Shown here: positions 25 through 23,774 of the stretch, in pieces
How the letters are laid out: each line of letters begins with the position of its first letter
Numbering within the stretch: position 1 is the first letter of the stretch
Virus record (IMG/VR): IMGVR_UViG_3300034031_000055
Coordinates: 1 to 25,821 of that record
Source: a virus
Direction: 5' to 3' (one strand)
DNA length: 25,821 nucleotides
Program-made: the position numbers and the translations under genes
Notes under the pieces: generated by a model
Databases searched by the model: none
Told to the model about the DNA's origin: nothing
Seen by the model: only the letters and a program-made list of their open reading frames with translations

Positions 25-204
25 ATGATCACACTAATCAACGGAATGATATTTATCGACAATGTAATAGCTACTAACCCGGAATATATCGGGCTTGCAT
101 TGCAGGATTTCGCAGAAACATTAGAGAATGATGGTAAAACAATTATTCTAAAAGATGCTGATGTTTTCGTTGAAAATGTTGGCAAATGTATTTATGATAA
201 ATAG
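25..204 (+). CDS. Small hypothetical protein upstream of terminase
   Basis: An ATG at 25 opens a 59-residue frame ending at TAG 202-204. The last G of that stop is the first base of the terminase GTG start (TAGTG overlap), which suggests translational coupling. The product starts MITLINGMIF and is a mixed, mildly acidic sequence with no signal peptide or membrane span. I do not recognise a family. It lies where a small phage ORF or a small terminase subunit is often found, but it has no visible helix-turn-helix and is short for a small terminase. It is called as a gene because of the tight overlap with the next gene and its uninterrupted frame; the function is unknown. Confidence 0.55.
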   Translation: MITLINGMIFIDNVIATNPEYIGLALQDFAETLENDGKTIILKDADVFVENVGKCIYDK

Positions 205-1673
205 TGCTTACAGATGCTGAAATATTAGAACTGGAAACTCTTTTGAAAGAAAGAGATATTGATATTTCATGCAAACGATTAAAGCAGGTTGATAAGGATA
301 CTAATCCAAATTATGCACTTCTTTTTGATGCAATTACTAGTCAAAGGTATGAGTTTGTTGATGGTGAAATGCAATTGGTGTCTGGCTATCGTGGAGCTGG
401 GCTTGAAGGATCTACTCGTTCTGGTAAAACCTGGAGCGGTGTTGATATAATCATTTGGCTTTGTCTTTATTATGAGATAAATGGTTGTACTATTAACATT
501 TATCGCGAAACATACAATGAATTCAAAACTACTCTATATGATGATTTTAAGCGTAGGTTAGACGATTATGGTTTGCCAAATAAATTTCATAATGCTGAAG
601 AAATTAAAAGTTTTAAAATTGGCAAATCTAAAATTTACTTTATTGGGGATGGAAAGCATGGTGGAGGTTGTGATTATGCTTTCTTCAATGAAATAATGTT
701 CATCAAGAAAAGCGTTTTTGATCAGGTTAAAATTCGTTGTAGAAAATTCTGGTGGGCCGATTATAACCCATCATTTACCGATCATTGGTTTTTTGATAAT
801 GTTTTAACTCGTCCAGACGTTGCATTTTTAAGAACAACATTTCATGATAATAAATATATTTCTCCACAAGAGAGGCATGAGATAGTAATTACTGAACCAT
901 GGAAGCCTGGATCATATATTGTAAAAGATAATATTATTCAATGCTATAATAGAGAAACTGGAAAAGTAGAACCAATTAGCAAAACAAATCAACCACTGCC
1001 GCATCCTACTAATATAAGTAATGGAACAGCAGATGAAGATTATTGGAAAATTTATGGTCTGGGACTTCGTGGAGCAATGAAGGGATTAATATTTCCAACA
1101 GTCACATGGATTGATAAATTCCCTGAAGACAAGGCTGAAATTTATCCTAATGACTTTGGATTCACAACAGATCCAAATACACTTGTTAAGTATGCTGAAG
1201 ATGAATATAATATTTGGATAGAGCCTTTGTCTTATGAACCGATTGAAACTCCGGAAGCACTTGCAGGCTTATTAGAAAGCTTAGGAATTGATAAGGCAAA
1301 AGACATAATTCCTTGTGATTCGGCTGATAAATATACTGGAGAAAACAAGGGAACTGTCGAAATGGTTAAAGGCTTAAAAAAATTAGGTTATGTCTATGCT
1401 TATAAAATCAGCAAAACAAAATCAGTAATGTATTGGCTTAATTCAATGAAAAAAAAGAAAATACACATCGTTAAAAACCATCTATATAGCCAGGCTCTGA
1501 AAGAACAACAAAATTATAAAATGAAAGAGATTGCCGGAATTCAAATAAACCAGCCAATAGATAAATGGAATCACATCTGGGACTCTGCCAGGTATGGTCA
1601 TATTGCTCATAATTCAAAAGCGCAAATGCACTCAACTGAAGAAACATTAGAAGAATTAGGAATTGATTATTAG
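204..1673 (+). CDS. terL: Phage terminase large subunit (ATPase and nuclease)
   Basis: The packaging motor protein cuts concatemeric DNA and pumps it through the portal into the prohead. The 489-residue product has the full two-domain plan. In the ATPase, a Walker A motif GSTRSGKT lies at 69-76, a Walker B-like YAFFNE at about 158-163 and a coupling-type ADYNPS at 185-190. In the RNase H-like nuclease, three acidic metal-ligand positions are visible: D317 in NDFGF, D372 in CDSADKY and D460 in the closing WDSARYGH. The start is GTG at 204: the frame has a TAA at 198-200 just upstream, and the next Met would remove part of the N-terminal domain. The portal gene follows after 5 bases. The small subunit must lie outside the window. 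Confidence 0.95.
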   Translation: MLTDAEILELETLLKERDIDISCKRLKQVDKDTNPNYALLFDAITSQRYEFVDGEMQLVSGYRGAGLEGSTRSGKTWSGVDIIIWLCLYYEINGCTINIYRETYNEFKTTLYDDFKRRLDDYGLPNKFHNAEEIKSFKIGKSKIYFIGDGKHGGGCDYAFFNEIMFIKKSVFDQVKIRCRKFWWADYNPSFTDHWFFDNVLTRPDVAFLRTTFHDNKYISPQERHEIVITEPWKPGSYIVKDNIIQCYNRETGKVEPISKTNQPLPHPTNISNGTADEDYWKIYGLGLRGAMKGLIFPTVTWIDKFPEDKAEIYPNDFGFTTDPNTLVKYAEDEYNIWIEPLSYEPIETPEALAGLLESLGIDKAKDIIPCDSADKYTGENKGTVEMVKGLKKLGYVYAYKISKTKSVMYWLNSMKKKKIHIVKNHLYSQALKEQQNYKMKEIAGIQINQPIDKWNHIWDSARYGHIAHNSKAQMHSTEETLEELGIDY

Positions 1674-3163: not shown

Positions 3164-3206
3164 TTATTTAGAATGATTATAAATAACATAATATGTTATA
3201 CATTTG
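3164..3206 (+). promoter_or_regulatory. Promoter with 17-bp dyad operator, capsid operon
   Basis: The 17-mer ATAACATAATATGTTAT at 3183-3199 is an inverted repeat (8-base arms ATAACATA/TATGTTAT around one central A). Its last base overlaps TACATTTG at 3199-3206, which fits the Bacteroidota -7 box TAnnTTTG. No TTG-type -33 element stands at the expected distance; the dyad fills that space, which is compatible with an activator site or an operator. The whole 43-base block recurs at 21360-21402 with only two differences. A decayed second dyad may lie at 3152-3169. The start codon is 30 bases downstream. Regulator identity is unknown. Confidence 0.7.
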
Positions 3207-3236: not shown

Positions 3237-3890
3237 ATGGCAGTTAAACCAGAAATCATTAAGGCACGACTTAAGGTATTATTCCCTAAGGCGAACTTAT
3301 CTACCAAAAGGATAGACGCAATAGCGGCTAAACTTGCTCCGATGCCAGCTGACGATGCAGACGATGCAGCGGTGGACGTTGTTTTAAATTTAGCAAATGA
3401 CTTTAATTCTTTTGAAGATATCGCCCGAGAGGACGATAGGATTAGGACCTTAGAGGCAAAAGCGAATACAGCCCCAACGCCGGCAAGCGATGCAGAACCA
3501 GCACCAGTTAATACACCTGTTCCAGATGATACTCCAGCATGGGCTAAAGCTATTATTGATGCAAATCAAAAGTTAGTGGCCGATATGGAAGCGATCAAAA
3601 CAGGTAAAATACTTGAAACTAAAAAACAAACTGCACAGTCTGTTTTTGAATCTTCGGAAGTTTTAAAGGCATTGAAGCCAGAAATTAAAGCAAACTGGCT
3701 TAACCGGATTGATGTTCATTCTGAAACTCCTATTGAGGATCAGGTAAAAAACCTTGAGACAGAATTCACTGATATACGTCAGGAAATTGCAAACACTACT
3801 AAATATTCTAGTGTTGTACCAAGTTTCACAAGCAAAGATGGCAAGCCAGATGAAAAAGATGTGGCAAACATTGTTGATGGTTTAATCTAA
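3237..3890 (+). CDS. Putative capsid scaffolding protein
   Basis: The 217-residue product is rich in Ala, Asp, Glu and Lys and mostly helical in appearance. It has an N-terminal helical part (about 1-75), an Ala/Pro/Thr-rich linker (about 76-105, with PTPASDAEPAPVNTPVPDD), a charged helical part (about 105-185) and a polar tail. This composition, with no membrane span or enzyme motif, and the position between portal and decoration/capsid genes fit an internal scaffold that directs prohead assembly and is then lost. I see no Ser-His-Asp protease signature, so a fused maturation protease is unlikely. It is the first gene behind the dyad promoter. The assignment is by position and composition; a minor head protein is the main alternative. 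Confidence 0.55.
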   Translation: MAVKPEIIKARLKVLFPKANLSTKRIDAIAAKLAPMPADDADDAAVDVVLNLANDFNSFEDIAREDDRIRTLEAKANTAPTPASDAEPAPVNTPVPDDTPAWAKAIIDANQKLVADMEAIKTGKILETKKQTAQSVFESSEVLKALKPEIKANWLNRIDVHSETPIEDQVKNLETEFTDIRQEIANTTKYSSVVPSFTSKDGKPDEKDVANIVDGLI

Positions 3891-3904
3891 AATTTAAAGA
3901 AATT

Positions 3905-4306
3905 ATGGCAGGTACAACTGTAAAATTAGACAACACAGGAACCTCGGTAGATACAAGCAATGATTCTGTTGTGATTGTACAAAACCTTGAGACTATTCCA
4001 GGGGGCAGCGCTTTGGACGTAACTGGATTTACTCCAGAGGTCATTAATGCGGGCCACTTAATCATTGAACAAACCGTGTCAGGCGACTTAAAGCCGATGC
4101 CTGTAACAGGCAATGATTATGCTGCATTACCAGCCGGACACACTTACAAAGGTGTTCTGGTTGCCAGCATTTTGAAAGCCAAGCCAAGCGCGGCAATAAT
4201 GGTTCGCGGAACTGTAAATGATGCAGCTTTTAAAAACGGCACCGGATTGACAACGCCAGCAGAGGCGAAAACAGCATTAGTATTAATCAGATTTACAAAA
4301 GACTAA
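3905..4306 (+). CDS. Putative head decoration protein
   Basis: The 133-residue product has a Gly/Thr/Val-rich all-beta appearance. The arrangement INAGHLIIEQTVSGDLKPMP (about 48-67), then YAALPAGHTYKGVLVASI, then a terminal strand with MVRGTVNDAAF resembles decoration proteins of the lambda gpD-like type, where a short beta-tulip protein trimerises on the capsid surface and stabilises the expanded shell. It lies immediately before the major capsid gene, the usual place for this function. Spacing to both neighbours is short (14 and 6 bases), so the three genes are co-transcribed. The family call is from pattern and context. Confidence 0.65.
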   Translation: MAGTTVKLDNTGTSVDTSNDSVVIVQNLETIPGGSALDVTGFTPEVINAGHLIIEQTVSGDLKPMPVTGNDYAALPAGHTYKGVLVASILKAKPSAAIMVRGTVNDAAFKNGTGLTTPAEAKTALVLIRFTKD

Positions 4307-4312
4307 TAAATC

Positions 4313-5587
4313 ATGGAAAGATCATTATTTGTCAAGTTTGCCGCCTACTTTACGGCAATTGCAAAAGACCTTGTAGAAAGAGTTAATGGCAAAAAAACGC
4401 CTTTAACTTATTTACATAAGGAAATGTTAACATCAGAACTATCGACAGATCTGAAGTGGCAGACATTAAACGTTGATGGTTCAATTGTTTCAGCAGATGT
4501 TGTTTCTATGGATTCCGCATTGCCATTGAAAAAAAGAGATTCATTTGGAACGGCTTCCGGAGATATTCCAAAGATGGGAATGAAATTTTCATTGAATGAA
4601 AAGACAATGTCCGATATTGACGTCTTACAGGCAAGGAATGTAGAAACTAAAACCCTGGTAGGGAAAATCTTTGCCGATACGGTCAAAGCAACTATGGGTA
4701 TTTACGAAAAGCTTGAGTTTATGTTCCTACAGGCTTTATCAACAGGTGTTACCTTAATTGATGACGACACGAATGTTGGAACAGGGATTAGGGTTGATTT
4801 CCAGTACAAGGCCGACAACTCATTTGGGGCAGCTTTGCCTTGGTCGAACCCTGCATCAAAACCAATAGACGATATCAGGAGGATCGTGAAGATAGCAAAG
4901 GCAAAAGGAGATTCTCCTGCATTTCTTTTAATGGATGAAGCTACTTTCGATAATCTTGCATCTAACCAGCAGACAAGAGAACAGTATGCTTTTAGTCAAA
5001 ATTTCGCAGGGAATACTATTCCGGTGCCAGATTTGGACCAGGTAAATGCCATGATGCAAAAAAGGTACAAACTGACTATTCAGATAATAGACAGGACCGT
5101 TGTTACTGAGAGAGACGGAAAAAGAACAACCCACACGCCCTGGGGTGCAAACAAAGTTGTTTTCTTGCAAAACTTGAAAGTTGGAAAATTGGTTTATGGC
5201 ATTCTTGCAGAAGAAACCCGCCCGAATAAAGCAGTGATGTATGAGAAAGTGGATGATTTTATTTTACTTAAAAAGTGGCACTCACCGGAACCTTTTGCAG
5301 AATTCACTTCTTCCCAGGCTTTAGTGCTGCCGGTTATCAATAATGTAGATTCCATTTACATACTTAATTCTGAAGAAGCTGCAACGGATAATCAAAATGA
5401 GGGAGATGCAAACTTTGCTTATAAAGGAGTGAATTATACGAAAGCATCAGTTATTGCAGCTATAAACGTGGCGGCCGGAAAAACAATTGCGAGAGTTAAT
5501 AACACTGATGCTACATTATTGAAATTCGTAAATGAATTGTCTGATGAAGATGTTCTGGTGTTTGAAGGTAACATTGTTGTAGCATAA
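4313..5587 (+). CDS. Major capsid protein (lambda gpE-like)
   Basis: This is the main shell protein of the head. The 424-residue sequence has features of the lambda E-type capsid group: an N-terminal helical arm, the early segment PLKKRDSFGTASGDIPKMGMK (around 71-91), a helix-rich middle with LLMDEATFDNLASN (about 205-218), and a late AEETRPNKAVMYEKVDDFILLKKWHSPEP stretch (about 299-327) before the conserved end FTSSQALVLPVI. Residues from about 348 onward form an additional C-terminal piece of about 77 residues with no counterpart in the basic fold. The position after a decoration gene and before the connector candidate supports the call. Codon use is visibly less AT-rich here than in the accessory island downstream. 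Confidence 0.88.
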   Translation: MERSLFVKFAAYFTAIAKDLVERVNGKKTPLTYLHKEMLTSELSTDLKWQTLNVDGSIVSADVVSMDSALPLKKRDSFGTASGDIPKMGMKFSLNEKTMSDIDVLQARNVETKTLVGKIFADTVKATMGIYEKLEFMFLQALSTGVTLIDDDTNVGTGIRVDFQYKADNSFGAALPWSNPASKPIDDIRRIVKIAKAKGDSPAFLLMDEATFDNLASNQQTREQYAFSQNFAGNTIPVPDLDQVNAMMQKRYKLTIQIIDRTVVTERDGKRTTHTPWGANKVVFLQNLKVGKLVYGILAEETRPNKAVMYEKVDDFILLKKWHSPEPFAEFTSSQALVLPVINNVDSIYILNSEEAATDNQNEGDANFAYKGVNYTKASVIAAINVAAGKTIARVNNTDATLLKFVNELSDEDVLVFEGNIVVA

Positions 5588-12632: not shown

Positions 12633-12675
12633 CTTTTTTTGCTATTTTTGTAATACTACTAAATAAAAATTATGA
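12614..12675 (+). repeat. Direct repeat copy 1 flanking first moron unit
   Basis: The segment from the last tape measure codons through the first codons of the next gene (TGGAGTTAG, a T-run, CTATTTTTG, then AAAAATTATGAAAAA) is clearly similar to 13908-13971. The copy here includes the real end of the tape measure gene (Trp-Ser-stop), so this is probably the original and the second copy its duplicate. Confidence 0.6.
12623..12650 (+). promoter_or_regulatory. Candidate promoter of first moron
   Basis: TATTTTTG at 12643-12650 fits the -7 box TAnnTTTG. A weak upstream CTG at 12623-12625, in place of TTG, lies 17 bases before it. The position just after the tape measure stop suggests independent expression of the accessory gene. 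There is no 17-bp dyad here, unlike the structural promoters. Confidence 0.45.
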
Positions 12676-13190
12676 AAAAGATTATCATAGCCTTGATTTT
12701 GGGTTTTACCACTTTCGGATATTCTCAAAACTGTAAATATAAAATAAATGAAGTTGATGAATTCAGTAAAAATAAAATTTTAGAAACTAAGAAAGAAGCT
12801 TTTACAATGTCAGGTATAGGGTTTGGTTTTTCAACAAATTATTCATTAAAGAAAATAAATAATGATAGATACTTAAAATTATATATAAGTAGTCCAAAAA
12901 TATTTACTTTAAGGCAAGGGGATCAAATTATGTTAAAAACAGATTCTGAAAATACTGTTTCATTAGTATTAATGCAAACAACAATTGCAAGAAGTTCTTA
13001 TAATGATCAGTTAGGAAGTACAACTTGGTACGAAGATGTATTAATACCTATTACTGACGAAAATTATCAAAGGCTTTTAACAGAAAATATTTTGAAATTA
13101 AGAGTATATACAGCAGATGGTTATATTGACGATGATGTTAAAGAAAAAAGAGCTAAAAAATTTAAAGAAATTTTAAAATGTATTGAGTAA
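12672..13190 (+). CDS. Secreted hypothetical protein (moron)
   Basis: The 172-residue product has a clean signal peptide, MKKIIIALILGFTTFGYSQ, with likely signal peptidase I cleavage after Gln19 (SQ-N, a frequent flavobacterial cleavage context). The mature part is beta-rich and polar, with YLKLYISSPKIFTLRQGDQIML (about 76-97) and a central TTWYEDVLIPI strand, ending in a basic helix. There is no lipobox and no T9SS sorting domain, so it is probably periplasmic. It interrupts the usual order tape measure to tail tip, has its own promoter candidate and is visibly AT-richer than the head genes, all signs of an accessory gene that may act on the host rather than in the virion. I do not recognise the family. 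Confidence 0.7.
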   Translation: MKKIIIALILGFTTFGYSQNCKYKINEVDEFSKNKILETKKEAFTMSGIGFGFSTNYSLKKINNDRYLKLYISSPKIFTLRQGDQIMLKTDSENTVSLVLMQTTIARSSYNDQLGSTTWYEDVLIPITDENYQRLLTENILKLRVYTADGYIDDDVKEKRAKKFKEILKCIE

Positions 13191-13205
13191 TTAAAAGCTA
13201 TTTAG

Positions 13206-13796
13206 ATGTCTATTGAACCTAATTATAAGCTGTCTCTTGATGAAATAATTAATAAAATTGAAACAGTATATTCCGAAAGTAACTACTTAAAAAGAAAAGA
13301 AGTTTGGCTTGATAATATTACTATGTCAGATAGTAAATGCTTACCCTTATATTATGATTTAGATTATAATTATTTAGGGTTTGAAATTAAACTGTCTGGT
13401 AAAACCATTAATTTAACCTTTACTTTAAACAAAACAATAAGTATAAAAAAAAATGATGAGTAATTTTTTTATTTTGAAAATAATGAATCCATTAATTTTA
13501 GTTTTCTGACAAATGGAGTTAAAGGGAATAAATTTTATTTTAACGTAGTTATACCTACTGGAAAGGAATTACTTCTTTTTGCAAATTATAATTTATTGTA
13601 CTGGAAATTAAGTTTAAAGAAGCAAAATATAATCTTAGAAAGTTATAACTCAATTATTCATCCATTAAATAGACTTAAAAATAAAGAAGATCTGCAATCT
13701 GTTTTAAAATTTATTACTTCAAAAATAATAAATGAGTTAAAGATTGCTTGTACGCATGACTACCCTAATGATGAAGTCAAAAATCAGCTTTTCTAA
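13206..13796 (+). pseudogene. Hypothetical gene split by an in-frame TAA
   Basis: One reading frame runs from ATG 13206 to TAA 13794-13796 and is broken only by TAA at 13461-13463. The first part is 85 residues (MSIEPNYKLSLDEI to SIKKNDE). After the stop the same frame continues without another stop for about 110 residues (FFYFENNESINFSFLTNG, then FYFNVVIPTGKELLLFANYN, to VKNQLF). Both halves read as ordinary protein, and alternating beta-strand character continues across the break, so an intact gene of about 195 sense codons is likely ancestral. One base change from GAA, CAA or AAA explains it. Alternatives are a sequencing error, suppression of TAA, or two separate genes; the second half has only a TTG start at 13596, so two genes is least likely. 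Function unknown. Confidence 0.7.
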
Positions 13797-13820
13797 TATA
13801 TTTCTTATTGATTTAAATTA

Positions 13821-13850
13821 GATTCTGTCCATCAGCAGGTTTTCTTGTTT
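13821..13850 (+). terminator. Decayed terminator after split gene
   Basis: GATTCTGTCCATCAGCAGG followed by TTTTCTTGTTTT matches base for base most of the intact terminator at 14712-14740, but the left arm has lost its pairing. It appears to be a degenerate copy of that terminator. Confidence 0.45.
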
Positions 13851-13907
13851 TAAATCACATTTAACCAATGTAAACGTTCCTCCAAAAGACTTTGATTACA
13901 AATTGTA

Positions 13908-13971
13908 AAAATTAAAATTGGAGTTACTTTTTTTACTATTTTTACAGTCTAAACTTAAAAATTATGAAAAA
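13908..13971 (+). repeat. Direct repeat copy 2 before lipoprotein gene
   Basis: Similar to 12614-12675: TTGGAGTTAC, a T-run, CTATTTTTAC, and AAAAATTATGAAAAA at the start codon. Here the TGGAGTTA part is not the end of any gene, so it looks like a copied remnant of the tape measure 3' end. The two repeats enclose the first moron unit (two genes). Confidence 0.55.
13918..13944 (+). promoter_or_regulatory. Candidate promoter of lipoprotein gene
   Basis: TTG at 13918-13920 and TATTTTTA at 13937-13944 (one mismatch to TAnnTTTG) are 16 bases apart, followed by the ATG at 13964. It is homologous to the candidate promoter at 12623-12650. Confidence 0.45.
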
Positions 13972-14689
13972 TATCATTTTTTACTTACTGATTACTTTAG
14001 CCTTTTTTGGATGTTCTAAAGAGGATGATAACGAAGATCAAACAAATTCTGATAGTTTGAAGCTAATAAGAGAAGTAGAAACAGATCTTATCACTAATAC
14101 TTCAGAAATATTTGATTTTACTTATTCTAACAATATCTTAATAAAAAGAGAAGAAACAGAAGGTAATAATGTTGATAAAACGGAATATATATATGAAAAT
14201 GGAAAATTGATAAGAAATAATTATTTTAATAATTCCATACTAACAGGAAATAGCACATATACTTATACAGGAGACATTATTTCTAGTATGTTGTCGTTTG
14301 AAGACAATATGTACTTTTTACATAATTACACTTATAATTCTGATAAAAAATTAATAAGTGCACAACAGTTCAGCAATAACATTTTAGATAGCAGTAAGGA
14401 GTTCCAGTATAACCCCCAAGGTAATATGTCTAGGATATTGTCAACCAATTATAATGTAACTATAGAATATGATAATTATAAAAATCCATATTCATTGATT
14501 TTTAGTGAGCCCTTTATGAATAGTATGGATGGAGCGGGTTATTCAAAAAACAATGTTACTAGAATAACCGAAAGCGCAGGATACATTACAACATATGAAT
14601 ATACCTATAATGATAAGGGCTACCCTATTCAGGTAATTGAAAAGTTGAATGGAGTTTCTAAAACTAGAACTACCTATACTTATGAATAA
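13964..14689 (+). CDS. Surface lipoprotein with YD/RHS-like repeats (moron)
   Basis: The 241-residue product has a lipoprotein signal peptide ending LAFFGC (Cys17), followed at once by SKEDDNEDQ. An acidic stretch with Lys just after the lipidated Cys matches the lipoprotein export signal known from Capnocytophaga and Flavobacterium, so display on the outer face of the outer membrane is likely. The mature part consists of repeated short strands of the kind FxYxNNxLIxR, YIYENGKLIRN, YTYNSDKKLIS, FQYNPQGNMSR, YTYNDKGYPIQ, about 20-25 residues apart, as in YD-type repeats found in RHS-like proteins and many Bacteroidota lipoproteins. It has its own promoter candidate and a strong terminator, so it is a self-contained accessory unit. 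A role in altering the cell surface or superinfection is conceivable but unproven. Confidence 0.75.
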   Translation: MKNIIFYLLITLAFFGCSKEDDNEDQTNSDSLKLIREVETDLITNTSEIFDFTYSNNILIKREETEGNNVDKTEYIYENGKLIRNNYFNNSILTGNSTYTYTGDIISSMLSFEDNMYFLHNYTYNSDKKLISAQQFSNNILDSSKEFQYNPQGNMSRILSTNYNVTIEYDNYKNPYSLIFSEPFMNSMDGAGYSKNNVTRITESAGYITTYEYTYNDKGYPIQVIEKLNGVSKTRTTYTYE

Positions 14690-14711
14690 AATAATAATAG
14701 TTAATTATAAT

Positions 14712-14740
14712 AAAACCTGCCTATCAGCAGGTTTTATTAT
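14712..14740 (+). terminator. Rho-independent terminator after lipoprotein gene
   Basis: A perfect 9-bp stem AAAACCTGC/GCAGGTTTT (14712-14720 with 14727-14735) and 6-base loop CTATCA, followed by an AT-rich, T-containing run. The flanking A and T runs would let it work in both directions. Confidence 0.8.
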
Positions 14741-14763
14741 TTTAAAAAATCCCTAAAACTTTC

Positions 14764-14795
14764 TTTTGCTTCTAGCTTAAGGAGTAAAAGCAAAA
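14764..14795. repeat. Inverted repeat in intergenic region
   Basis: TTTTGCTT (14764-14771) and AAGCAAAA (14788-14795) form an 8-bp dyad with a 16-base spacer. It lies between the lipoprotein terminator and the next small gene. Role unknown. Confidence 0.35.
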
Positions 14796-14833
14796 ACAAA
14801 ATGGCTCTTTATTGAGGTAAAATGGGTACACTC

Positions 14834-14855
14834 TTTCATAACATTTTTTATGAAA
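14834..14855. repeat. Inverted repeat in intergenic region
   Basis: TTTCATAA (14834-14841) and TTATGAAA (14848-14855) form a perfect 8-bp dyad with a 6-base centre. It may be a small hairpin or a binding site. It differs in sequence from the 17-bp operator. Confidence 0.4.
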
Positions 14856-14907
14856 ATCCTCAAATTTAAAAGCAAGTAAAATAATACTCAAATAAAATAA
14901 GGCATAA

Positions 14908-14915
14908 TAAATTTG
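14908..14915 (+). promoter_or_regulatory. Candidate -7 box before small ORF
   Basis: TAAATTTG fits TAnnTTTG and lies 48 bases before the ATG at 14964. No convincing -33 element is visible. Confidence 0.3.
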
Positions 14916-14963
14916 TATTACAGCATAAATGTTATAAATTTATCTGAATTAAAGTTCAGAAAT

Positions 14964-15152
14964 ATGGCACTTTCAAAATATGCGTACAAATCAAAAGAAG
15001 AGCTTATAGAATATATTCAAGCTTTGGAATATTTAACTATAACATCTTGTACCAATCCTATAATTAAATTGATAATTACTAGCACACCGGAGTTAATCCC
15101 ATTAGATAGTAAAATTGATTTGATCAAAACAATATCTAAACTAAAGAAATAA
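14964..15152 (+). CDS. Small hypothetical protein
   Basis: The 62-residue product begins MALSKYAYKSKEELIEYIQALEYL and ends KISKLKK-like (LIKTISKLKK). The frame is open upstream to a TTG at 14913, but the ATG at 14964 starts the part that looks like protein. The N-terminal helix KSKEELIEYIQALE is amphipathic. No motif, signal peptide or membrane span is obvious. It stands alone between two non-coding stretches within the accessory island. Confidence 0.45.
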   Translation: MALSKYAYKSKEELIEYIQALEYLTITSCTNPIIKLIITSTPELIPLDSKIDLIKTISKLKK

Positions 15153-15473
15153 TAGCTTTATAATAAAATGTATGTATAATGCTGAGTACCACAACAAGAT
15201 TAATTGCAAAAAAATATACATATAATCATACTTATATTAAAATGTTTATGTAATTTCTTGCAGGATAAATTTCTATTTCTTAATTTTATGTGTTGACAGA
15301 CAATTCATTACCTACGTTACCCGAAAAAGATTTGAAAAACATTGATTTATTCAAGCAATTGTACGGAACGGTTAGCAATTGACAAGGTTATTAAGTAATG
15401 TCAGCAGAGAATAAAAGGGAAATTAGCCGAACAGGTACTTTAAAATAGTAGGCATAATCAAAATTAAATTAAA
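15153..15473. other. Gap of 321 bases, possibly a decayed gene
   Basis: No intact gene is seen. Two short adjacent stretches read like protein in different frames: 15293-15382 (LTDNSLPTLPEKDLKNIDLF and onward) and 15366-15398 (ERLAIDKVIK then stop). These could be the remains of a frameshifted gene, but I cannot identify it. The first half of the gap is plain AT-rich sequence. No convincing promoter or terminator is visible. Confidence 0.35.
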
Positions 15474-16484
15474 ATGAAAAACATCTTCTTATCTTTATTT
15501 CTAATTTCAGTATCGAGTATTCTATATTCTCAAAATGCCAATAGACGGATTATTGGTGATGACGGTAATGAGTTAAATCTATGTATCATTGGCAATGCAC
15601 AAGTAACTATTGGGGAAACGAACATATTTAGTTCAATACTGACGGCTCAATGTTCAAGTTGCTATGATTGGGATATCAACAATGATAGTGATTCTTCAGA
15701 CAACCAAACAGTTGGAATTGTTGGAATAGATACGGAACAAACTGTTCAAATTCAAGGCATAACAGCTGGTCCTTTCACTTTACAGTTAACTTATTTTGAT
15801 GAAACTGGTTGTCATACTTGTAATTTTAGTGGGGTGGTTTTAGAAGCACCTGTTGTCACACCATTACCAAGAGTAAGCTGTTTCGGTTTTGATCCTGTGG
15901 AAGGTCCACCAGATGTTAATGAGGAAGGCCTTTTAAATTATGGATATTTAGGAATGCCATATCAAGCTCCTATATCATCAATTGGACTAACATTTGCTTG
16001 GTATTTTAAATTTGCAAATGATAATTTATTGACATTTGATACGCAAAATCCAACATTTAGAGAATTATGCCCAACTAACCCAGTAAAAAGTTTTGCTTTA
16101 GTAGTTTCAAATGGTGTGCAATCGAGACAATATAGATCAATTGATCCGGATTATCCAATTCCTGGATTTTCTATGGGCAGTACCCCTACTTGTTTTATAC
16201 ATCCTGAATGTGGAATAGGTGGTTTTGCTAATTCATCTAAGACTGTTACAAATCAGGGGAGTATAATTTTATCACCAAATCCAACAACTTCTATTATAAA
16301 ATTTGAAGGAGAAAATTTAAAAGATTACAAAATCTCAGTTTTTAATATGAATGGAGAGGAAATTTTAAAAAATTTAAAACTCGATCAAGACTTAAATTTA
16401 GAAAATCAAAAAAAAGGAATCTATTTATATGTCATAACTAATGAAAAAGGGTTCAAACAAGAAGGGAAAATAATAAAGGAGTAG
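15474..16484 (+). CDS. T9SS-secreted protein with type A sorting domain (moron)
   Basis: The 336-residue product has a signal peptide (1-20, ending ILYSQ, cleavage before NANRR). A beta-sandwich-like, PKD-type section follows (about 40-123, with four Cys and FTLQLTYFDETGCHTC), then a Cys-containing middle (about 130-250). The C-terminal domain (about 263-336) has the hallmarks of the type A T9SS sorting signal: LSPNPTTSIIKFEG, then ISVFNMNGEEIL, then LENQKKGIYLYVI and a basic end GKIIKE. Such proteins cross the inner membrane by Sec and the outer membrane by the Bacteroidota-specific type IX system and are released or attached to the surface. The gene lies inside the phage tail operon region, so it is a phage-borne host-directed product. 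The function of the mature part is unknown. Confidence 0.85.
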   Translation: MKNIFLSLFLISVSSILYSQNANRRIIGDDGNELNLCIIGNAQVTIGETNIFSSILTAQCSSCYDWDINNDSDSSDNQTVGIVGIDTEQTVQIQGITAGPFTLQLTYFDETGCHTCNFSGVVLEAPVVTPLPRVSCFGFDPVEGPPDVNEEGLLNYGYLGMPYQAPISSIGLTFAWYFKFANDNLLTFDTQNPTFRELCPTNPVKSFALVVSNGVQSRQYRSIDPDYPIPGFSMGSTPTCFIHPECGIGGFANSSKTVTNQGSIILSPNPTTSIIKFEGENLKDYKISVFNMNGEEILKNLKLDQDLNLENQKKGIYLYVITNEKGFKQEGKIIKE

Positions 16485-16595: not shown

Positions 16596-16637
16596 ATAAC
16601 ATATTTTGTTATATTATAACATAATATGTTATTTTTG
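16596..16637 (+). promoter_or_regulatory. Promoter with two dyad operators, tail-tip operon
   Basis: There are two 17-mers: ATAACATATTTTGTTAT (16596-16612, one mismatch in the dyad) and the standard ATAACATAATATGTTAT (16616-16632), 20 bases centre to centre. TATTTTTG at 16630-16637 fits the -7 box and overlaps the second dyad by three bases. The start codon used by the gene is at 16654. The first 17-mer is identical, on the opposite strand, to 21347-21363. Confidence 0.7.
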
Positions 16638-16653
16638 TATTTATATATTTTTC

Positions 16654-18873
16654 ATGAGCAATATAAATACAACCTATAACGACCGTGTCCGCTACACGCT
16701 TAAAAGTAAAAATTTAGATTCTTTAATTGTTACAGAACCCATTGGCTGGACTGAAGATGACAAAGAATATTCCCGTCACGAACAATATCATGGAATTATT
16801 GCTAAATTTTCAAACTCCTTAAAATTTATTGACAGTGGTGCCGATTATATTCAACTGGTTTTAGACTTGTACGGCATTAATGAACAGGTGGAACTAATAA
16901 GGGAAGAAAAGCATCCCCAAACAGATGTATGGACATTGACCTACTCTGGTTATCTGGACTTATCGACATGGACCAGGGAAAAGAACGAGGTAGGTGTAAA
17001 ATTTAATTCTGGTGGTTTAGAGCAACTATTAAAATCCCGTGAAAGCGAGAAAGTAGAAGTTGACAGATTGACTACCATTGACGGTAAAACAATACCAGAA
17101 CTCAGTACCATTGATGTGGAACTGGAAGGGCGCAGAATATTTTTAAAAAGTAAATGGGAATTAAAAGCACCTAACAATTACGGAGAAGTATTTATAGAAT
17201 CAGAAGCAGGAAATACAAGAGACCAATCTGTGGGTGTTCCTTTTCAATTGGTTAATCAATCACATGAAAATGCGCAATCGGTAAATATTCAGAGTAATGC
17301 CAATGAAAATTATGGAACTACTGGAATGATGTTTTATGCGGTTTCGGAGAGACAAAGGACTTTAGATATTTCAATTATAATGACATTTAAGTTAAATGTA
17401 CATCAGGAAGATATAGGTTGGGCTTGGTTTGATATTAATCTAACTAAGTATGGAAATGGTATAAATTATGAACCTATTTCGAGGGAAAGACTTTTTGGGC
17501 TTCCCAATAAAAGTGCCATTTTTGATGCATCAGGAAGAACTTTCAATGTGAATTATCAGGGACGAGTTGTCATAAATATTGGGGAATCTTTGGCCATCGA
17601 AGCAATAGAAAAAGCTGACCTTCAAAGGAGGGGTCATGCTGAATTAAGAATTACAATGGTGGATATGGTTGGTGAGTTAAAAATGGATGAAGATAGTTTT
17701 CATGAAAAGACTACGACTAAGGCTATATTGGCTCATGAATTAGCTGATAGATTAGTAACCATTGTCACCAACGAACGAAATGGATTTTATTCCGATTTTT
17801 TAGCAAGAACGAATTTAGGATATCCAGTAAATGGAAAGGGTGCTTTTACCGGGTTTACACATGGGTTTTGGGTTCGCGGATTTTATAAATCACCAGAACC
17901 AACAGAAGGACAGCCAAATGTTGAAAATTTATTTAAACCCTTAACGACCTCTTTTAAAGACTTTGCACAATCGATGGCGGCTGTTTGGAATGTCGGGATA
18001 GGAATAGAAAAAGCAGGTTTTAAAGAAAGGGTCAGGCTGGAAGAGTTAAGATATTTTTACAATCCTAATGTCACGATCAGACTCCCAAATCAAGTAAAAA
18101 ATGTAAAGCGCACCATTGCAACGGATAAATGTTATTCCTCATTAGAAATAGGTTTTAAAGAGGGTGGTGATTATGAAGAAGCCTGCGGGCTGGATGAGTA
18201 TAATGCAAAATCTACCTTTACTACTGTCATCAACCGTATAAAAAATACTTATACCAAAATATCGGAATACCGTGCAGATAGCTATGGGTTAGAATTTGCG
18301 AGAAGAAAGCAAAAATTATTAAATGATACAGAAGATACACCTTATGATAATAATGTCTTTTTTTTAGATTTAAAAAGATTTATACCCGGGCTTTTAAAAC
18401 AAAGAAAATGGTGGGATGATTTCGAAGCAGCTCCAACTGGAGTTTTCAGCCCTGAAACTGCAACAAATTTAAGATTTTCACCATTTAACTGTTTGCTGCG
18501 CCACTCATGGTGGTTTTCCGGAGGTTTTAAAAAATATCTTTCTGATTATATCCGATATGGCAGTTCCACCGCCAATAGCCAGTTAAAAACCAAAATGATT
18601 AATGGTAATGAATATGCTGAGAATGGTAATATAATCAATTCAGAGTTACTGCCGGCACGTTTCATACCGGAGGAAATAGAATTTGAACATATTTGCGATT
18701 TTGATATTATGCAACAAGTCAATGGAACATCAATTATATTGGGGAAGAAAATACAAAATTTTTACGGCCTTGTCGAGTTTAAGAACGAAAGAAACGAAAT
18801 AGAGAAAGGCTTTTTGATTAATTTGAAGCCAAATGGGCGTGGGAATTGGAAAATATTAAAATCAGCTAGATAA
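16654..18873 (+). CDS. Putative tail-tip / baseplate hub protein
   Basis: The open frame reaches back to a TTG at 16606, but that part overlaps the operator; the ATG at 16654 gives 739 residues starting MSNINTTYNDRVRYTL. The N-terminal third is beta-rich (KSKNLDSLIVTEPIGWTEDD, a phrase that looks like a tail protein beta-sandwich). The middle contains long strands, including GTTGMMFYAVSERQRTLDIS, and a helical segment LAHELADRLVTIVTNER. No peptidase or lysozyme motif is seen. Large proteins in this position, after the tape measure, usually form the distal tail, hub or tail-associated protein. The accessory island separates it from the tape measure, and it starts a new dyad-controlled transcription unit. 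Family not recognised; role inferred from position and size. Confidence 0.6.
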   Translation: MSNINTTYNDRVRYTLKSKNLDSLIVTEPIGWTEDDKEYSRHEQYHGIIAKFSNSLKFIDSGADYIQLVLDLYGINEQVELIREEKHPQTDVWTLTYSGYLDLSTWTREKNEVGVKFNSGGLEQLLKSRESEKVEVDRLTTIDGKTIPELSTIDVELEGRRIFLKSKWELKAPNNYGEVFIESEAGNTRDQSVGVPFQLVNQSHENAQSVNIQSNANENYGTTGMMFYAVSERQRTLDISIIMTFKLNVHQEDIGWAWFDINLTKYGNGINYEPISRERLFGLPNKSAIFDASGRTFNVNYQGRVVINIGESLAIEAIEKADLQRRGHAELRITMVDMVGELKMDEDSFHEKTTTKAILAHELADRLVTIVTNERNGFYSDFLARTNLGYPVNGKGAFTGFTHGFWVRGFYKSPEPTEGQPNVENLFKPLTTSFKDFAQSMAAVWNVGIGIEKAGFKERVRLEELRYFYNPNVTIRLPNQVKNVKRTIATDKCYSSLEIGFKEGGDYEEACGLDEYNAKSTFTTVINRIKNTYTKISEYRADSYGLEFARRKQKLLNDTEDTPYDNNVFFLDLKRFIPGLLKQRKWWDDFEAAPTGVFSPETATNLRFSPFNCLLRHSWWFSGGFKKYLSDYIRYGSSTANSQLKTKMINGNEYAENGNIINSELLPARFIPEEIEFEHICDFDIMQQVNGTSIILGKKIQNFYGLVEFKNERNEIEKGFLINLKPNGRGNWKILKSAR

Positions 18874-20950: not shown

Positions 20951-21102
20951 TCATCAGAGCAAAATTTACATTCAGTAATATAAATTTCATCATGTTTTTT
21001 ACACTCTTTCAAAGTATCAGCTAATGCAAAAATTGATTTGAAATCACCATTTTTACATGCATTTTGAAAATCTTGTACTAATTTATTTTGTTCTTTATCC
21101 AT
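20938..21102 (-). CDS. Small Cys-containing hypothetical protein
   Basis: A 54-residue gene on the minus strand, MDKEQNKLVQDFQNACKNGD to SDEATD. The ATG at 21102 overlaps the end of the preceding minus-strand gene by 8 bases, so the two are co-translated. The product is charged and helical, with four Cys (positions about 15, 34, 45, 48; the last two as CKFC). A CxxC with two further Cys could bind metal, but this is weak. Family not recognised. Confidence 0.6.
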   Translation of the reverse strand: MDKEQNKLVQDFQNACKNGDFKSIFALADTLKECKKHDEIYITECKFCSDEATD

Positions 21103-21316
21103 TGCTATTACTTTTTTTTAGTTCAAAAACCTTTTTCTTCGTAGTATCATCAATTATAGAAATGTTTTTATGTTCATGATAATGATGATGAACCGACCTA
21201 TCTACATAAGTGATTCTACTGTTGCCTTTGTTAGGAAATAAAGCTTCTCCAACTAGTTTTCCAATTAACCAGCCACCACCCACTAACGCAACGAAAAGTA
21301 TAATTATAAACATCAT
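21095..21316 (-). CDS. Small membrane protein, His-rich tail
   Basis: A 73-residue gene on the minus strand. The frame extends upstream to 21385, but that part runs through the operator; the ATG at 21316 gives MMFIIILFVALVGGGWLIGK. The N-terminal 20 or so residues form a membrane helix, followed by a polar tail with VDRSVHHHYHEHK (about 38-50) and a Lys-rich end. It is expected to be anchored in the inner membrane. The candidate -7 box TATTTTTG ends only 4 bases before the ATG, so the mRNA may be nearly leaderless. Opposite orientation to all neighbours marks it as an inserted accessory cassette. Function unknown. Confidence 0.6.
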   Translation of the reverse strand: MMFIIILFVALVGGGWLIGKLVGEALFPNKGNSRITYVDRSVHHHYHEHKNISIIDDTTKKKVFELKKSNSNG

Positions 21317-21320
21317 AATA

Positions 21321-21363
21321 CAAAAATAACAAAAATGCTTTTCTGAATAACAAAATATGTTAT
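21321..21363 (-). promoter_or_regulatory. Minus-strand promoter with dyad operator
   Basis: On the minus strand, ATAACATATTTTGTTAT (21363 to 21347) is followed after 18 bases by TATTTTTG (21328 to 21321). This mirrors the plus-strand arrangement at 16596-16637, where the same 17-mer stands 17 bases before TATTTTTG. The conserved spacing suggests that the dyad replaces the -33 element. Confidence 0.6.
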
Positions 21364-21402
21364 TTAGAATCATTATAAATAACATAATATGTTATACTTT
21401 TG
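21360..21402 (+). promoter_or_regulatory. Promoter with dyad operator, tail fibre gene
   Basis: ATAACATAATATGTTAT at 21379-21395 overlaps TACTTTTG (21395-21402) by one base. The 43-base block is the same as 3164-3206 except for two bases. The fibre gene ATG is 20 bases downstream. The variant dyad of the divergent minus-strand promoter lies 32 bases upstream centre to centre, about three helical turns. Confidence 0.7.
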
Positions 21403-21422: not shown

Positions 21423-23774
21423 ATGAGTTTTCAAACATTTGTAACCCAAAGATTAGCTGCTATTACTGCTATGATTAATGCAATAGCAACTAATGCAAAA
21501 AAAATTGATGAATTGCCTGAACAATCAGATTTAAATCCGGCATCAAAACTTCATGTTTCGAGGGATGGAATTTCTGAAAGTCTGGAAGTTGAGAAAATTA
21601 TCAGTGCGATTAATTCAGGTCTTTTTGATACTATATTATATCTAGGAGATATTACATTAGATGGAAATGTTGTAACTGTTCCGGCCGGAGCGAGATGGAA
21701 GATTGGGAATATTAATTATGGAAATACATCTGATATTGAAAGAACAGTACCTTTTTGTGCAATAGGATTAACAAGAATAGATATTTTAGTTGCCAATACT
21801 TCGAATGATATTATTTTAATTAGAGGCCAGGAAACGGCCAGTATCAGTATACGGCCAAACACTCCTCCCAATACAGTTTTAGTAACAGAAATGAGTGTTA
21901 CAGAAAGAACTGTAGGAACCCCTGCCAATCCTGTATTAGGCGGCCCGTTTGTAAGAAAATCTGAGAAATATTTTGCAGACATTAATGCTCCAGGTCAAAA
22001 TAGTGTTAGACTGTATGGTGAAAGTTCCTATTTTATGATTTCTGATTTTTATGCCCCTTTCGGGAATTTAGAATATTTAATTGACTATATGACTTCTACT
22101 TATGTAGGCAAAAGCTATGTTTTTTATAATAATCAGGCGACTAATTTAACTATTGTTCATAATCCTTCGGGAACGGTAGCCAATAGAAAATATTTTATAT
22201 TTCCAAACAATCAAAATTTCATTTTAAAGCCTGGTGAACAAGTAGAGTTTATAGAGCATGAAGATGGCAACTTATATTATTTGGGGACAGCTAATGTTGA
22301 TATAAACAACTACTACACAAAAACCGAAATTGATACTAAAATATCATCTGTTTACAAATACAAAGGAAGTGTAGCAACATTAGCTGATTTGCCATCATCA
22401 GGGCAAGTAATCGGGGATGTCTATGATGTTCAGACAGACGGTAGTAATTATGCATGGAATGGTATTGAATGGGATAGATTGGGTGGTATGGTGGATATGT
22501 CAGGGAAAGAAGATACAGCCAATAAATCACAAGATGTAGAAGCGGACAAGCTATCAACTACAAAATATGGATCAATCAAAGCGATATATGATTGGGCAGT
22601 TGCAAAGTTCCAGGCGGCATTAAGGGATGTTAGCGCAACACAATCAGGAATTGTTAATAACAATTTATTACAAGAATTGGGAGGTGTAGATAAATTGATT
22701 AATGGTGTCCGCATAGGCCGTGGTAACGGCAATGGCATTAATAATCTAGCCTTAGGAGCTTCAGCTTTAAATTCCGTAGAAGTCTCCGGGAATTTATCAG
22801 GCCAATATAATGTAGCGGTAGGAATCAACCCTTTGGAAATGAATACTACAGGGTTTTACAATAGTGCTTTAGGGGTTAGAACTTTGACTAATAATACTAC
22901 AGGAAATTATAACACTACTATAGGGGCTGTTACTCTACATTTCAACACGACAGGCAATGAAAATACCGCAATTGGAGCGTTTTCTCTATGGAAAAACACA
23001 ACAGCAAGCAATAATACAGCTTTTGGTAGTTCATCGTTAAGAGAAAATTTAACAGGTTTAAGAAATGTTGCCGTAGGTAGGTTTGCAGCAGTAATAAGTA
23101 CTGGTAATGATAATATTGCCGTAGGACATGCAGCTCTGGGCAATCTTAGTACAGGTTCGGGCAATGTTGTTTTAGGAAGTAGCATCAACACTAATTTAGG
23201 TTTAACAACAGGTTCTAATAATTTAATAATTGCCCCTAATAATGGCCAAGCAACTGGAATAACAACAGGTAGCGGTAATGTCGTTATTGGAAAAGTCACC
23301 GGCTTAGCTGCTGACCTGCAAAATACAGTAACTATTGCTAATGGGGTTGGAGATATTAGATTTTCAGTTAACACTGCCGGACTTGCGACCATTCCTTCTC
23401 AAACCAATGCATTAATAGAGGCGGATGCAAGTGGTAAAGCTGCAATTACAAAAGAATATGTCAATTCAATAGTAAAGCCTTATAAAGTCTATGTTGCTCT
23501 TTTAACTCAAACAGGGACATCTGCTCCGGTTGCTACAGTTTTAGAAAACACTTTCGGAGGAGAAGTTATGTGGAGCCATGATTCACAATCAAATTATAGA
23601 GGCACGTTAACAGGAGCTTTTACAGAAGGAAAAACAGCTGCATTCTTACAACAAAATAACTTTTTTTATACATTGGTTTTTAACAGGATTGATAATAATA
23701 GCTTTATTATCACAACTAATGGGCCTGACAATATTTTAATTAACGCTTCTATAGAAATTAGAGTATATAATTAA
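21423..23774 (+). CDS. Tail fibre / receptor-binding protein
   Basis: The 783-residue product has the modular build of a tail fibre. The N-terminal helix and virion-attachment part with SRDGISESLEVEKIISAI lie at about 45-64, and several beta domains run to about 290. A short linker INNYYTKTEIDTKISS (about 293-308) leads into the small domain YKGSVATLADLPSSGQVIGD (about 310-350), common in fibres. A region of 17-residue repeats NTTGNYNTTIGAVTL spans about 439-627, followed by a C-terminal domain after IVKPYKVYVALLTQ. Repeats with TGNxNTAIG resemble the left-handed trimeric coils of trimeric autotransporter heads. No S74 self-cleaving chaperone is seen. It has its own dyad-controlled promoter and precedes the lysis genes. 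Likely role: receptor recognition. Confidence 0.8.
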   Translation: MSFQTFVTQRLAAITAMINAIATNAKKIDELPEQSDLNPASKLHVSRDGISESLEVEKIISAINSGLFDTILYLGDITLDGNVVTVPAGARWKIGNINYGNTSDIERTVPFCAIGLTRIDILVANTSNDIILIRGQETASISIRPNTPPNTVLVTEMSVTERTVGTPANPVLGGPFVRKSEKYFADINAPGQNSVRLYGESSYFMISDFYAPFGNLEYLIDYMTSTYVGKSYVFYNNQATNLTIVHNPSGTVANRKYFIFPNNQNFILKPGEQVEFIEHEDGNLYYLGTANVDINNYYTKTEIDTKISSVYKYKGSVATLADLPSSGQVIGDVYDVQTDGSNYAWNGIEWDRLGGMVDMSGKEDTANKSQDVEADKLSTTKYGSIKAIYDWAVAKFQAALRDVSATQSGIVNNNLLQELGGVDKLINGVRIGRGNGNGINNLALGASALNSVEVSGNLSGQYNVAVGINPLEMNTTGFYNSALGVRTLTNNTTGNYNTTIGAVTLHFNTTGNENTAIGAFSLWKNTTASNNTAFGSSSLRENLTGLRNVAVGRFAAVISTGNDNIAVGHAALGNLSTGSGNVVLGSSINTNLGLTTGSNNLIIAPNNGQATGITTGSGNVVIGKVTGLAADLQNTVTIANGVGDIRFSVNTAGLATIPSQTNALIEADASGKAAITKEYVNSIVKPYKVYVALLTQTGTSAPVATVLENTFGGEVMWSHDSQSNYRGTLTGAFTEGKTAAFLQQNNFFYTLVFNRIDNNSFIITTNGPDNILINASIEIRVYN
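22737..23303 (+). repeat. 17-residue repeats within tail fibre gene
   Basis: About ten units of roughly 51 bases encode a consensus like xNTAIGxxxLxxNTTG. The clearest run is NYNTTIGAVTLHFNTTG, NENTAIGAFSLWKNTTA, SNNTAFGSSSLRENLTG. Later units vary in length (16 to 20 residues). The DNA copies have diverged, so the protein structure rather than recent duplication keeps the pattern. Confidence 0.8.

Follow-up and report, generated by a model that had tools for sequence, protein, structure and literature searches.

A Fur-type box and a -7 box in predicted composite late promoters of a large group of Bacteroidetes phages

Some phages express their late genes through activators of their own that replace the -35 contact, as do P2 Ogr and T4 MotA, and a prophage promoter can also be placed under a regulator of the host, as in E. 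coli stx1, where a toxin cargo gene is controlled by host Fur. Bacteroidetes phage promoters differ from the textbook types, and the control of late genes in these phages is, to our knowledge, still largely uncharacterised. Many phages enter their hosts via iron-regulated TonB receptors, and tail fibres may contain iron, an idea still open (the 'Ferrojan horse'). In the Flavobacteriales, a Fur box of Riemerella anatipestifer was predicted from regulated genes and backed by Fur EMSA (PMC5609570). The CGP3 prophage of Corynebacterium glutamicum is described as showing iron-triggered induction via the SOS response (PMC6173762). In the open-access literature we found nothing on Fur control of flavophages, and iron or ferric is not mentioned in the main text of the source paper of phages Danklef and Freya.

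Architecture of the promoters in the window

The window is the whole stretch of viral DNA that was analysed (25,821 nucleotides), an incomplete 25.8-kb record without the early region. The initial annotation described two near-identical 43-base blocks in it, ahead of the capsid and fibre genes. Both are present, at 3164-3206 and 21360-21402, with mismatches solely at 3175 (G/C) and 3202 (A/T; coordinates of the first copy), and none of 20 Markov shuffles of its sequence contained a comparable 43-mer pair. Position 3175 is the central base of a palindrome that we call element A, and 3202 is an 'n' of the -7 box TAnnTTTG; both positions are degenerate, so every base with a predicted meaning is identical in the two copies. 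As read from its sequence, each 43-bp block combines two operators (A and B) with a -7 box. Element A, the first 23 bases of the block (TTATTTAGAATnATTATAAATAA), is a separate palindrome that was absent from the initial annotation. It is followed by the 17 bases of element B, which overlaps the end of A, and TAnnTTTG begins on the final base of B, in line with the reported overlap between dyad and -7 box. The features of the window are:

25-204, plus strand: F44 gene (59 aa), immediately ahead of the terminase large subunit (TerL) gene; in several relatives joined to a Fur-like DNA-binding domain
3164-3186, plus strand: element A of the capsid operon, predicted extended Fur box TTATTTAGAATGATTATAAATAA (19-mer core 3166-3184), one mismatch to ATTTAGAATnATTCTAAAT
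3183-3199, plus strand: element B, phage-specific dyad ATAACATAATATGTTAT, exact copy
3199-3206, plus strand: -7 box TACATTTG of the capsid-operon promoter, without an upstream -33 TTG
3237-5587, plus strand: first genes of the capsid operon, F6 (3237-3890), 3905-4306 and the major capsid protein (4313-5587; Phage_cap_E, 7e-23; phrog_29)
16596-16632, plus strand: tandem B-B with a 20 bp period ahead of a tail gene, exact B at 16616-16632 and near copy at 16596-16612
16630-16637, plus strand: -7 box TATTTTTG of the B-B promoter, with the ATG (16654) 16 nt further on
16654-18873, plus strand: F10, virion structural protein downstream of the B-B promoter (phrog_15220, 1e-117)
21095-21316, minus strand: F13, small one-helix membrane protein with the motif HHHYHEH, divergent from the fibre promoter
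21347-21363, plus strand: distal B copy ATAACAAAATATGTTAT of the fibre promoter, a near copy (B'-A-B array, centres 16 bp apart)
21360-21382, plus strand: element A of the fibre operon, TTATTTAGAATCATTATAAATAA (core 21362-21380), one mismatch to ATTTAGAATnATTCTAAAT
21379-21395, plus strand: proximal element B of the fibre promoter, exact ATAACATAATATGTTAT
21395-21402, plus strand: -7 box TACTTTTG of the fibre promoter, without an upstream -33 TTG
21423-23774, plus strand: fibre/spike-type virion protein (phrog_23837, virion structural; phrog_4636, tail spike)

The start codons lie 30 nt (ATG 3237) and 20 nt (ATG 21423) past the blocks, within the 20-30 bases given by the initial annotation, and the missing -33 element that it noted is borne out by the lack of a TTG 14-24 nt ahead of the capsid and fibre -7 boxes. 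The features of an activator-type promoter, i.e. a -7 box, no -33 element and an operator at a fixed distance, are thus present at the capsid and fibre promoters; the tail-gene -7 box does have a TTG, located within the distal B copy. This tail promoter (16596-16632) is a third B promoter, which had been overlooked when two sites were counted. The notion of one dyad and one regulator also has to be revised, as the block contains a second palindrome, the Fur-type box A, and relatives conserve this palindrome better than B at their capsid and fibre promoters.

The tail genes follow a 4-kb insertion (12672-16484) between the tape measure and a tail gene, which most of the compared relatives do not have at this place and which terminates in its own B-B promoter. 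A secreted protein encoded in the insertion (15474-16484) has a C terminus similar to type IX secretion sorting signals, and two mutually similar, imperfect repeats with CAGCAGGTTTT within the cassette (13806-13854 and 14698-14746) are probably terminators. The F13 gene is always divergent from the fibre promoter, and its His-rich motif (HHHYHEH and variants) is kept in 17 of 17 members; the stretch is a possible metal-binding segment.

Distribution of elements A and B

Element B (ATAACATAATATGTTAT) occurs as three exact copies in the window (3183-3199, 16616-16632 and 21379-21395) and two near copies with one mismatch on the better strand (16596-16612 and 21347-21363); at up to three mismatches, there are 10 strand-matches against 0.57 expected, a number reached by 0 of 100 shuffles. 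B recurs ahead of TerS, TerL, tail, capsid and fibre units. We scanned 12 larger relatives with a weight matrix and examined the tandem arrangement at 40 distinct promoters. The copies follow each other with a period of 20 bp in 33 of 40 pairs, and in 36 of the 40 distinct promoters the TA of the -7 box is in a fixed register with the proximal B. B-B promoters stand ahead of the TerS unit, of the tail genes past the 4-kb insertion in the window and of the F44-TerL unit in L006, the closest relative of the window (568-603). In six host genomes, B was not commoner than a reversed control, and exact copies were located inside a prophage only; we therefore regard B as a phage-specific promoter module. 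The claim of a phage-wide control element thus stands in so far as the dyad recurs ahead of phage units and is at background level in hosts. A motif search had been suggested in the initial annotation, with hits anticipated only before phage operons and near a helix-turn-helix gene; B does precede phage operons, with exact host copies confined to a prophage, and no helix-turn-helix gene adjoining B was found. A comparison of gene presence and absence with B among the phages gave no clean regulator candidate, and HTH_39 (F38), the single candidate that was tested, was rejected as its regulator, as several B-bearing phages do not have it. As a separate observation, L047, L049 and G019 (near 22930) have a tRNA-like sequence directly 3' of a B-B late promoter, downstream of a TerS-like gene.

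Element A agrees with the Flavobacteriales Fur box ATTTAGAATnATTCTAAAT at all bases but one in each window copy, and in many relatives the match is exact; it is thus the EMSA-supported box of Riemerella anatipestifer save one base (PMC5609570). In 101 Flavobacterium genomes, the 19-mer at up to one mismatch was found ∼112 times, against ∼10 for the reversed control (both totals are our own sums), and among the genes beside it are sufS, a siderophore-type decarboxylase, imelysin, TonB receptors and hemA/AraC. Based on the identity with the Riemerella box and the enrichment at host iron genes, we take A to be a host Fur box. A Fur gene is present in both hosts that were searched (G035 and G036; PF01475, best E-values 1e-25 to 1e-26). 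At the sampled host genes, a small and partly orthologous set, the -7 box is upstream of the Fur box, which is a repressor arrangement, and never 13-16 bp downstream of it.

Among 20 phages, 64 boxes with up to three mismatches were found against 7.5 expected, and the intergenic ones cluster at capsid, fibre and repressor genes. At capsid promoters, ATTTAGAATnATTCTAAAT is present at up to two mismatches in 29 of 46 distinct cases (null 0.016%), although such counts are non-independent, with capsid and fibre promoters homologous within the group and phylogeny inflating the numbers. Here A is mostly located 14-16 bp ahead of TAnnTTTG (13-16 bp overall), i.e. in the -33 position, and it is likewise found at the fibre promoter of relatives, divergent from F13. 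B intervenes between A and the -7 box in a minority only (the window, L006, L018, L046 and L055) and follows a variant box in L012. In IMG/VR, we found 97 distinct stretches with box and -7 box, of which 69 have a spacing of 13-16 (binomial p 6e-26, uncorrected for descent), distributed as 14 (35 stretches), 16 (16), 13 (11) and 15 (7). The element extends beyond the TerL family of the window to L218 (three copies), L269 (two), L246 and, among named phages, the Polaribacter phages Danklef/Freya and the Leeuwenhoekiella phage Arctus_1. A search of 399 Flavobacteriaceae genomes for the box followed by 12-17 bp and TAnnTTTG returned four matches only, two in the known prophage of Flavobacterium sp. 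1355 (L093/G035) and two on contigs where the matching stretch equals promoters of phage G020, and a BLAST comparison of the composite with plasmids gave weak matches only.

A further location of the box is the start of lysogeny repressor genes. In 10 of 14 such genes, a box with up to three mismatches ends within ∼10 nt of the predicted ATG (overlapping it in G017), compared with 2.5% of non-repressor ORFs that have a box near their start. The repressors with a box differ in their HTH domains and have unrelated recognition helices.

Candidate readers of element A

No Pfam-detectable Fur protein was found in 27 phage records, and no Fur-like domain in the 25.8-kb window, whose early region is outside the record. 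The F44 gene, which encodes a small protein (25-201 in the window), is directly ahead of TerL in nearly all relatives, and F44 has a C-terminal Fur-like winged helix in L037, L021/G008, L028/G013, L032, L040, L057, L086 and L367 (the fusions in the last two were assigned by eye from sequence). The same domain is encoded by a separate gene in L031, L034-036 and L038/G016, and in G016 this gene (31860-32312) is directly ahead of the capsid promoter. Comparison with Fur by hhalign gave 95.7% (pairwise E 9e-9), and the top 27 PDB matches of the L037 model in Foldseek all belong to the Fur family (best E 1.5e-3). The phage domains match positions ∼1-77 of the 121 of the Fur profile, with the remainder being F44 or absent; they do not contain the metal-binding dimerisation domain of Fur and we therefore call them Fur-like rather than Fur. 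F44 was considered as this dimerisation domain and rejected (profile probability 0.2%, no PDB fold match).

In Danklef, gp73 consists of a Fur DNA-binding domain (PF01475, 1e-7) joined to a 45-residue domain homologous to F44. The Danklef/Freya protein (L336:44806-45234) is annotated as a Fur-family protein and encoded just ahead of TerS/TerL, and Fur boxes precede the portal gene and other structural genes of these phages; no relatives of Danklef gp73 were found in IMG/VR.

In some relatives, the slot of A is occupied by a variant box, TTATTTAGwCTAAATAA. A phage-encoded domain is present in 8 of the 12 phages that have the variant box and in 2 of the 28 that have the canonical one (Fisher p 2e-4, uncorrected for descent), so four relatives with the variant box do not have the domain and two with the canonical box do; G023 has the variant box at the capsid and the canonical box at the fibre promoter. 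The hosts encode a DtxR-family protein, and on the basis of the association with phage Fur-like domains we consider a Fur-type reader of the variant box at least as likely as a DtxR operator. In the Flavobacterium hosts L302, L306, L310 and L325, boxes similar to the variant are located ahead of TonB receptors and of a periplasmic binding protein.

Proposed mechanism, alternatives and known systems

With a probability of roughly 0.6, we favor a late-promoter class that is run by a Fur-type protein, which would be host Fur in the window phage and a phage-encoded Fur-like domain in several relatives. A composite late promoter would result, with the Fur-type box standing in place of -33, B filling the spacer and the Bacteroidetes -7 box at its end. 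A Fur-family DNA-binding protein would dock at A, supplied by the host in the window phage and most relatives with the canonical box and by the phage itself, as a Fur-like DNA-binding domain, in several relatives that usually have the variant box. The bound protein would help RNA polymerase start at the head and fibre operons. Since there is no -33 element and the distance between the box and the -7 box is fixed at 13-16 bp, we consider such activation the most likely direction of the effect, at slightly better than even odds, and the suggestion of the initial annotation that an activator substitutes for the -33 contact is plausible; classical holo-Fur repression is given appreciably lower odds. 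F44, the product of the preceding terminase operon, is a likely phage partner, judging from the gene fusions and its position. The second Fur box before most repressor genes may couple the decision between lysis and lysogeny to the same signal, and B may add a second, phage-timed input. We propose only tentatively the complete scheme in which F44 recruits host Fur or the phage Fur-like domain as an activator at the head and fibre operons and the boxes at repressor genes tie lysis and lysogeny to iron.

The main rival, which we regard as possible but well short of probable, is that, in iron-rich conditions, host holo-Fur occupies the -33 region and thereby represses the capsid and fibre operons as well as the repressor gene, and that iron starvation releases them; F44 and the phage Fur-like domains would in that case serve as anti-repressors or substitutes. 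Fur acts mostly as a repressor, the box overlaps the -33 region, where a repressor would also be well placed, and the boxes at repressor genes are located right ahead of the ATG, as in classical Fur targets. However, in the limited host sample described above the Fur boxes are downstream of -7, whereas those of the phages vary little in spacing and take the place of -33, and the G016 domain is encoded in the gene before the capsid promoter, as would suit an activator produced in the preceding step. Slightly less probable is the original version, in which a single phage regulator governs both units with B as its sole operator. It accords with the phage specificity of B, its recurrence, the tandem period of 20 bp (33/40) and the -7 register (36/40), but leaves A unexplained, although A is what relatives conserve at their capsid and fibre promoters; it may be true of one half of the block.

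Reading of A by a phage protein unrelated to Fur, with the match to the Fur box being coincidence or mimicry, appears unlikely. Many phages have early regions rich in uncharacterised genes, and B points to a phage-specific regulator, but A is near-identical to a 19-bp Fur box, the variant box goes together with Fur-like DNA-binding domains, and Danklef has both Fur boxes and its own Fur-domain protein. We assign the lowest likelihood, a very slight one, to A as the operator of the lysogeny repressor, dispersed to silence late genes in the prophage in the manner of L5 stoperators. A does adjoin the repressor gene as well as late promoters, but covariation between operator and repressor HTH, expected of such a system, was not observed: A is constant across repressors with unrelated HTHs, and it is therefore not considered their operator. 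An identical box is also found at host iron genes.

A Fur-type late promoter would give a large phage group, represented by 97 distinct IMG/VR stretches, a concrete promoter grammar that can be tested, and would link virion-gene expression to host iron regulation. It suggests that the group ties virus assembly to the iron status of the host or borrows an iron sensor as a gene switch. If true, an iron-gated fibre operon would make the 'Ferrojan horse' question directly testable.

Compared with known systems, the phage promoters share with the Flavobacteriales Fur regulon (PMC5609570) the 19-bp sequence, which in hosts that encode Fur precedes iron genes, but differ in that the phage box is located 13-16 bp upstream of -7, replaces -33 and is found at head and fibre genes and lysogeny repressors. 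The iron status of the host affects the CGP3 prophage as well; the route there is SOS, and the abstract of that study describes no iron-regulator box at virion genes (PMC6173762). As in stx1, host Fur would act at a prophage promoter; there the target is toxin cargo, whereas here it comprises predicted virion operons and lysogeny repressors and is phage-group-wide. The closest parallels in architecture are the P2 Ogr and T4 MotA promoters, with no -35/-33 element, a retained core box, an operator at a fixed distance and, in some relatives, a candidate phage-encoded activator; unlike in those systems, the DNA-binding module would be of the Fur type and apparently supplied by the host in most phages with the canonical box.
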